Source: Brachionus manjavacas (lineage: Eukaryota > Rotifera > Eurotatoria > Ploima > Brachionidae). From it: a DNA stretch of 64,000 nt. A program made the position numbers and the translations under genes. The number at the start of each line of letters is the position of its first letter. Position 1 is the first letter of the stretch. The stretch is from contig JAHQIY010000007.1 of the NCBI GenBank assembly GCA_019054805.1, forward strand, positions 2,051,501 to 2,115,500, written 5' to 3'. The notes under the pieces were generated by a model. It saw nothing but the letters and a program-made list of their open reading frames with translations. It had not been told where the DNA came from and made no database searches. Positions 13,501 through 16,500 of the stretch are shown here, one piece after another.

Positions 13501-16500
13501 CAGATCATACCGAAAATTTGGTAAAATTCGAATAAAATCAATATGATAGCGACATCTTTGTCGATATCACTGGAAAGTTGATTAACTTAACCATGAGCGC
13601 TTAATTTAACAAGGATCATAAATGGCTGCTCCGAAAAGTCTCTAGAGGAGAGCGAATACGTACTAAAGTATACAATCAAATTTGTCAAAAAATAAAGTCT
13701 AAGTTTATTTTACAATTAATCATTATTTTTTTAAATTAATCTTTGCAAAACTTAAAAAAAAAATTCTTTTCAAGAAATTTTTTCAGGCCTAAGTACTGAA
13801 AATTTTATTCCATTTTTTTATTTCAATTTATCTATAATATTAAAAATCTATCATATTCTCCGTAAACTCTTATAAATTATTATAAAATATAAAAAGTCAA
13901 ACACTAATGTAATAATAATAATATATATAAGCTACAGCAAGACTTGCTTGCGAAGGTGGCCTACTAGGAGGTCACTTATGGTAGCTCAATGTATTTTCAA
14001 TTTTATATCTTATAATTAAACTAAATTTATTGTATAATATTCAAATGCTAGATTTTGTCTAATTTCTAAACCTCTTTTTTTTACTAATAGAAATAAGTCT
14101 TCTGTTGATTCATCTTTTTCTAACTTAAGTACCGCTTGGAACAAAGGCGACAGTTTTCGATAAATAAATTAAACTCATATAACAAAAATACCATCATCAG
14201 GTGTCTAAAGAAGGCAATAGTAAAGGAACTTCCCATATATATTTTCTTAAATTAATATTTAATTTAATCGATTCCAGCTAAAAAAATCAATTTTTGAACA
14301 AGCTTTTAATAATTATTAAATTTTTTCTTTATTTGAATTAAATTTCGAAAAATTATTAAATTTATATTAAAATTTTTAGAAATTATTTTAATTTGAAATG
14401 TAGCCTCTTTATAAATTTTAAATGAAAATTAATTAATCTTTAAAAAATGATTAGAATAAATTAAAATTTTTTTTTATCTAAATGTTTAAATATGTTTAAA
14501 TTGTTCAAAAACATTTTCAGTTGCAACATTAAAATCACAACCTTTTTATATTTTGAATGAAATAATTTTTTTATTAGGTTTTAAATCATCCTTCATATGT
14601 CGAACCCTCTCCGAAAAATATTTCAATCTTTCTAGTACAACTATTATATTTTCTTTTATAATTATTATCTTAATATCTAAATGCTAGGTTCAACTTTTAG
14701 GAAATTTTTAAAAATCATCAAAAATATTCCTAGTTGTCAATTTGAGAATTATTTTAAGCATGCGAGTTAATATTAAATAAAAATGCTTAAATTTCTGTTA
14801 ATGTCATATAATTTTTATAAATAAAATTAGTTGATAAAATATCTTATTAGAAAAATTATTTTACTTGATTTTGATTTAACAGAAGCTCTAGTTCTGCCTC
14901 TGTCACCTAAAGCACTACTAATTTCAGTGGTGACTATGTCCGGAGTTTTACTGACTTGAAGTAGTTTTTTATTATTTTCAACGAAATTGATGTCACCTTC
15001 CAAAAATTGGCGCATAAAGCTTTCCCTTATTTTCGGTGTGTCGAATTCATTAGGTTTTCGTTTAAGTGAAACAAGCTGTGGTTGATTCGGAAATTTTTCA
15101 AATATGCGTAGCCTCCACGGAAGAGTCTCTTGGGTTTCTGCACTTTGTTCTCGCATTTTAAGCTGTGAACAAATATTTAGAAATCACAAAAAAGCCGTCT
15201 TCAGATAAAAAATACCTGTTTAATTTTTTTAACATCTTCATCCAACTCTAGGTTATCCAAAATTACGGCAACAAACAAACTTAGCAAAATCTTTTAAAAA
15301 TTAATTAATAAAAGTTGATTAAATTTTTAAAAATATAAAAACACTATACAAAAACAATCAATAGCAATCATGCATCAAAAATTGAAAACACCAAAGAATA
15401 CCACTATTGAATTGATTTGAGGAATTCGATAGCTGATGAAACCGGCAAAAAAAGAAGAAATAAAATTACGACAACAAATTAAGGATGAACATAAGTTATT
15501 ACGACATTTATAGATTTAAATTAAAATGACAAGACATACCAAAGTGACAAATAAATGATATGATATAAAATAGATGGCAACAAGAGGATAAAATTTTTTT
15601 GATTGAGTCATCGTTGAATGCATGATATCTAGCCAGCCTTTTTGAGTTAAAATCTGGAACATTGTCATAAAGGCCTAATGTTTAAAATTAGTAATTAATT
15701 TTTTTTTAAGTAAACCCCCAGAATTGGTTTAGGAAATTAGTTCAGTATCAAGTTTAAAAAAATCAATCTTTTGCCTACTAGCTTCAACTATTAAAAAAAC
15801 TCTTGCTAGTTAAGAATAATTCTTAATTACCAAACTGCAAAACATGTGAGAAAATATAAAATAAATGGGAATGAAATATGTGTAGTAAAGAAGTTCTTTG
15901 TGCTCGTCGATGGCCCGCATTGTTTCATACATGGTCTCAGTCCAGCCCTCATTGGTAATTATTGCAAATTGGCTCATGAAAGCCTAGGATAGATTATTAA
16001 TTTATTAAAAATTTTAGTTGAACTAGTTAAATTTGGTTTTCTTAGCTTTTATCAAAAGATTAAAAATTACTTGGTCAAAAGTATCAAATTTTTTGTATTC
16101 ATTTGAGCCAATGAAGCAGAAAAGCTGCATGCTGACACATGATGTTATGATAAGTAAACACATTGTGAATATTATGAGTGATCCAAGTTTTTTTCCAGGA
16201 CCGAAAATCTAAATAGAAAATTTTGGTTAATTGTTTTTTAAACATTATTCTATTAAGTGTTGATCAATTATAATTATAATTTTAATAATTTTATGTATAA
16301 TTTTTTAAAATCTGATACAATTCAAATTACTTTTTTAATTTCATCTTACTCTTATTTAATATAAAAACGATTTTTAATAATTATCCAAAAATATTTTATT
16401 TTTTGACACTAAATAGCCAAAATAAGCATTTCATTATTTTTTAAGGCTCCACCTTGTTTTAATAATTTCTTGCAATAATTTCAATGGCATATAATTATTA

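Follow-up and report, generated by a model that had tools for sequence, protein, structure and literature searches.

Two intact exons, each encoding the pore of repeat II, lie in tandem in a NALCN gene of a rotifer. On the evidence of their sequence, it is very probable that they are spliced alternatively, which would yield a channel with either an EEEE or an EKEE pore, and that they are the exon 15a/15b pair known from other invertebrates. Below, we describe the gene and the two exons, consider how one might be chosen over the other, and compare them with the pore exons of relatives and with published pore switches.

Layout of the NALCN gene and its exon pair

The stretch of DNA that we analysed as a whole, hereafter the window, is 64 kb long, has a GC content of 27% and belongs to a 114-Mb genome in 61 contigs. 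It holds a complete NALCN gene on the minus strand, running from 24358 to 7586. Spliced alignment, which was guided by the human NALCN protein and which by construction admits only GT-AG introns, tracks NALCN end to end over the whole gene. The path through exon 9b comprises 17 exons, separated by 16 introns, and its reading frame is open. Independently of the alignment guide, the repeat III exon searched against the PDB gives an E value of 8.8e-127 for solved human NALCN, whereas the best Cav reaches 4.5e-50. The spliced alignment and the human match thus bear out the initial annotation, which had named the gene as NALCN. The product is a four-repeat channel with a whole-length match to NALCN that is better than to Nav or Cav, and 118 of the 120 database matches listed (the best 120 of 736) cover at least 95% of the query, many being annotated as NALCN; the exceptions are P0074 and P0102.

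Among these same best 120 of 736, the top match is a Brachionus calyciflorus protein (P0003; 86% identical over the query) and the next seven are from bdelloid rotifers (59-62% identical). Because of this ranking, the sequence assigns the gene to Brachionus or a close relative, with B. calyciflorus itself ruled out. Within the genome of this Brachionus-type rotifer, it is the only NALCN gene that was found. Searched against the genome, the repeat III exon has a single full match besides five distant hits (23-29% identical), and the repeat IV pore exon has further matches at 31-41% identity, with E values of 1e-9 or weaker. We take these weaker matches to be other channels, and a second NALCN gene was not found in the genome. 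A match to the channel partner UNC80 (UNC80_N) was.

Exon 1 occupies 23900-24358 from its first Met, the same start as in the B. calyciflorus protein, and spliced alignment places exons 2-7 within 17688-19430 (19430-19297, 19234-19106, 19052-18904, 18849-18707, 18295-17969 and 17915-17688), the repeat I filter Glu (SQEGW) lying in exon 5. The exon pair is flanked by two shared exons, both placed by sequence and spliced alignment: exon 8 upstream (16071-16208), which ends in ...KKFDTFDQ with the donor GTAATT, and exon 10 downstream (15216-15290). Further along, spliced alignment gives exon 11 in the II-III linker (14997-15162; its 3' end at ~14997 is uncertain, the linker being poorly conserved), and a PDB match together with spliced alignment gives the large repeat III exon with its filter Glu (SLEGW; 11706-13057, the 5' boundary at ~13057 being uncertain). 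The remaining exons, all from spliced alignment, are the one following the repeat III pore (11548-11646), one with the III-IV linker and the first part of repeat IV (9920-10399), the repeat IV pore exon, in which the filter Glu is followed by another Glu (TGEEW; 9640-9870), and the last exons (7586-8828, as 8828-8629 and 8561-7586), which cover the end of repeat IV and the C-terminal tail to the stop. Elsewhere in the window, C.C....MCKHI-like open frames and a long transposase-like frame (1443-3502, minus strand, and 21166-21681, plus strand, in intron 1) are presumably the remains of DNA transposons, and we take an open frame with an FADDTK motif (5349-5882, minus strand) to resemble a retrotransposon reverse transcriptase.

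Between exons 8 and 10, on the minus strand, lie exon 9a (15831-15983; 153 nt, 51 codons) and exon 9b (15540-15674; 135 nt, 45 codons). Both translate into the P-loop and the start of S6 of repeat II, 9a with a Glu filter (TNEGW) and 9b with a Lys filter (TQKGW). Each begins and ends in phase 0, and the end of exon 8 (16071) and the start of exon 10 (15290) both fall on codon boundaries. Exon 9a is flanked by ...CCTAG upstream and GTAATT downstream, and exon 9b by ...CATTAG and GTATGT, respectively; the splice-site scores of both fall inside the range of the 13 other introns of the gene. The intervening introns measure 87 nt (8-9a, 15984-16070), 156 nt (9a-9b, 15675-15830) and 249 nt (9b-10, 15291-15539). 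All that the initial annotation had read from this region, namely the coordinates, order, translations and boundaries of the two exons, their phases and GT-AG sites, and a Glu in the other three domains that predicts an EEEE or an EKEE pore, was found again on the sequence. With 37% identity (tblastn E of ~1e-7 in the 64-kb window), 9a and 9b are by sequence homologous to each other. No third repeat II pore exon occurs in the 64-kb window, and each of the two has a single match in the 114-Mb genome among the best candidates of a first-pass search, which were the ones scored.

Choice between exons 9a and 9b

In the mechanism that we propose, the spliceosome would place either 9a or 9b between exons 8 and 10; we infer that the exons are used one at a time. 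The earlier statement that neither exon is needed to rescue the frame is true, but the frame also permits double inclusion or skipping, all four splice combinations being open (9a, 1812 aa; 9b, 1806 aa; both, 1857 aa; neither, 1761 aa). Since the forms with both exons and with neither stay open, the reading frame cannot enforce exclusion.

The same property lends some weight to the idea that both exons are regularly spliced together, giving two serial P-loops in repeat II, or that both are skipped in some transcripts, and so do certain deposited proteins. The rotifer proteins identified by name among the matches listed comprise one from B. calyciflorus and 18 from bdelloids, and the 18 bdelloid models (seven b only, three a only, seven a then b, one neither) are deposited gene models, possibly of alleles or paralogues, that speak to the existence and order of exons and not to splicing. 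Five molluscan models (P0067, P0125, P0127, P0135 and P0173) likewise carry a then b in tandem, and a Biomphalaria model labelled "isoform X2" fuses both exons. Gene predictors, however, tend to chain in-frame exons, which counts against reading such tandem models as transcripts. Moreover, a second P-loop and S6 start would enter a conserved pore, and a single exon is present in 10 of the 18 bdelloid models, in B. calyciflorus P0003, which has 9a only, and in Lymnaea LNALCN-EEEE. The main text of Senatore et al. (2013; PMC3557258) also reports mutually exclusive variants among Lymnaea cDNAs. We therefore regard regular double inclusion or skipping as improbable, and favor alternative use of 9a and 9b.

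What might keep the two exons apart is a separate matter. Steric crowding between 9a and 9b is unlikely to enforce the choice because the intron between them, at 156 nt, is longer than eight of the 13 other introns of the gene, those eight measuring 49-67 nt. An inverted repeat lies over the 9a donor (15803-15833 of the window), with 15-nt arms that are 87% complementary and 1 nt apart. No other of the gene's 16 donors has as stable a fold as this hairpin, predicted at -8.6 kcal/mol; the bases of the 9a donor are paired at 0.74, which is not the highest of the 16 (0.96 for the exon 6 donor). Among 192 background sites, a fraction of 0.078 (8%) equal it in both pairing and stability, so that the hairpin is only a hint of an exclusion device. 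Exclusion would then have to come from regulatory proteins or RNA structure, or else be incomplete. Since neither frame nor crowding enforces the choice and the donor hairpin is near background, the likely regulators would be trans-acting factors, possibly aided by RNA structure.

Predicted pores and repeat II loops in relatives

Residues were placed by sequence match to solved human NALCN. Exon 9a plus its flanking exons aligns to human residues 499-613, and the repeat II stretch matches with an E value of 3.4e-53 when it contains 9b and 5.5e-41 when it contains 9a. In its accessible text, the human structure paper (PMC7672056) gives E554 as one of the four filter residues, and D558, D561 and D1390 as being among the residues that help sodium binding in simulations. 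The two predicted channels, EEEE with 9a (1812 aa) and EKEE with 9b (1806 aa), would be alike save for 51 or 45 residues. The 9a form would have a Glu at the E554 position of the repeat II filter, making a calcium-channel-like EEEE ring, and the D558 and D561 positions are occupied in 9a by Glu and Tyr. In 9b, the Asp at the D558 position is kept and a His occupies that of D561. With a Lys at the E554 position and this His, the EKEE form would lose negative charge at two sites, which should favour monovalent cations. The labels "calcium-like" and "sodium-like" may be applied to the 9a and 9b forms by analogy.

The Lys filter has a characteristic companion residue. Our sample of 287 proteins consisted of the matches listed from three overlapping searches (the best 120 of 736, 120 of 915 and 120 of 155); 273 repeat II loops were found in it by pattern, and 26 proteins yielded none. 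Within these 287 listed proteins, all 35 loops with a Lys filter (24 distinct) have His (31) or Gln (4) at +7, compared with none of the 227 loops with a Glu filter (130 distinct), and the 11 with an Asp filter have Tyr (10) or His (1), all these counts being non-independent since the loops are related by descent. P0014 and P0018, two of the 26 proteins missed by the pattern, have Lys and His when inspected by eye. The pairing of Lys with His or Gln can be taken as a signature of Lys exons that puts 9b, by its sequence, among the known ones, and having His or Gln at +7 in common speaks for a single origin of these exons.

Exon 9b is identical at 33 of 45 residues to the Lys exons of both Octopus and Lineus, and at 29 of 45 to that of Rotaria. 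As for 9a, it shares 46 of 51 residues with B. calyciflorus P0003, 19 of 49 with bdelloid a exons, 23 of 46 with the single Glu exon of a tick, and 21 of 45 and 21 of 46 with the octopus and Lineus Lys exons, respectively. Exon 9a thus resembles bdelloid a exons to roughly the same degree as it does the Lys exons and the single Glu exons found in other animals, which counts against an orthology based on trees. In a tree of 37 exon peptides (P0082 left out), neither the Lys exons nor the a exons form one clade, and deep nodes are unsupported; because of this, position and residue are the grounds for regarding 9a as a putative orthologue of molluscan 15a. Mean pairwise identity is 74% among 15 b exons versus 43% among 15 a exons, with a and b labels that were assigned by the analyst and with one a exon (Haliotis P0021) taken from a "low quality" model. 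Although this disparity, and the tendency of the EEEE exon toward loss described in the main text of PMC3557258, would suit a decaying duplicate that is unused in B. manjavacas, most likely 9a given that Glu exons are fast-evolving and often lost, we give this reading even less credence than joint inclusion, since 9a, which is intact and whose splice sites are acceptable, is closely matched in B. calyciflorus and included in the protein deposited for that species, and since 9b retains both the Lys/His signature and the residues shared with the octopus and nemertean exons.

The acidic exon differs between rotifers. Every bdelloid model having an a exon (10 of 10: P0006-P0010, P0013, P0017, P0036, P0202 and P0246) has an Asp at the filter (NDGW), and every bdelloid b exon (14 of 14) has a Lys, so that the bdelloid forms are predicted, from these sequences, to be EDEE and EKEE. 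Separately, a 696-aa model from the acanthocephalan Neoechinorhynchus agilis (P0251) has a single repeat II loop, GDEW, with an Asp at the filter and a Glu replacing the adjacent Gly.

A further difference lies in repeat IV, where the filter reads GEEW, with codons GAA GAA at 9660-9655 on the minus strand, and the filter Glu is thus followed by a Glu. This position is an Asp in 161 of 161 readable relatives among the proteins listed, including B. calyciflorus, the other 126 of the 287 being unreadable by pattern or without the region. The accessible text of a 2023 review (PMC10120453) names the position a "beacon" and gives it as an aspartate in repeat IV of animal NALCN; the human residue is D1390 (PMC7672056). 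The change from Asp to Glu keeps the charge, and a single-base change could account for it; a sequencing or assembly error is possible.

These observations suggest a broader idea, which we offer as tentative and rather doubtful: in rotifers, the Lys cassette may be nearly fixed and the acidic cassette re-tuned by lineage, as EEEE in Brachionus and EDEE in bdelloids, here with the Asp-to-Glu change in repeat IV. If so, the switch would select either a monovalent leak that is constant or a pore, specific to the lineage, that binds divalent ions, and a phylum in which a single filter position can be Glu, Asp or Lys would offer a natural series for testing the purpose of the acidic form. Rotifers are small animals that can be cultured, and they could let the question of the two forms be tested by life stage or salinity. 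According to the accessible text of Stephens et al. (2015; PMC4436565), the reason why invertebrates have two forms, calcium-like and sodium-like, is not yet understood.

Comparison with known pore switches

The open-access literature was searched for a NALCN exon pair in rotifers and no report was found; subscription papers and supplements lie outside this scope. The word "rotifer" has no occurrence in the main text of PMC3557258. Later reviews return to the same switch (Stephens 2015, PMC4436565; PMC6259924, from 2018; PMC10120453, from 2023), and in their accessible text PMC6259924 and PMC10120453 contain neither "rotifer" nor "Brachionus". A 2025 paper on NALCN subunits across animals (PMC12412391) has, in its accessible text, no word starting with "splic".

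Human NALCN (PDB 7cu3, 6xiw and 7sx3) resembles the Brachionus channel in its homology over the whole channel and in the repeat II alignment around the filter. However, its pore is EEKE, with the Lys in repeat III and a Glu in repeat II. A filter switch between Glu and Lys by tandem exons is also known from exons 31a/31b of myriapods and chelicerates (main text of Senatore et al., 2013; PMC3557258), but these lie in repeat III, where the Brachionus gene has a single Glu pore exon. No duplicate of this exon occurs in the 64-kb window, which rules out a cassette of the exon 31 type here. The bdelloid pair (Rotaria, Adineta) is closer, with a before b and a Lys in b as in Brachionus, and differs by the Asp in its a exon.

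The nearest counterpart is the pair of exons 15a and 15b, known from Lymnaea stagnalis and from several phyla. The main text of Senatore et al. (PMC3557258) describes exon 15a (Glu) upstream of 15b (Lys) in flatworms, molluscs, annelids, echinoderms and hemichordates, and adds that the ion selectivity of the snail forms could not be confirmed by expression. The initial annotation was right to link 9a and 9b to the alternative pore exons of Senatore and Spafford. Both pairs belong to a single gene, span repeat II from the P-loop to the start of S6 and specify EEEE or EKEE; in Brachionus, as in that system, tandem exons of compatible phases have the Glu exon upstream and the Lys exon downstream, with Glu in the other repeats. 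Judged by these sequence features, 9a/9b corresponds to 15a/15b. The differences are the host, a rotifer, and the length of 9a, which has 51 codons, as in B. calyciflorus, versus 46-49 in 13 other a exons. Since the same pair in the same order has already been published for several phyla (PMC3557258, main text), what we describe is a known splicing system in a taxon, the rotifers, that is new for the NALCN pore switch, along with some comparative observations, possibly also new: the bdelloid Asp, the pairing of Lys with His or Gln, and the Glu of repeat IV.
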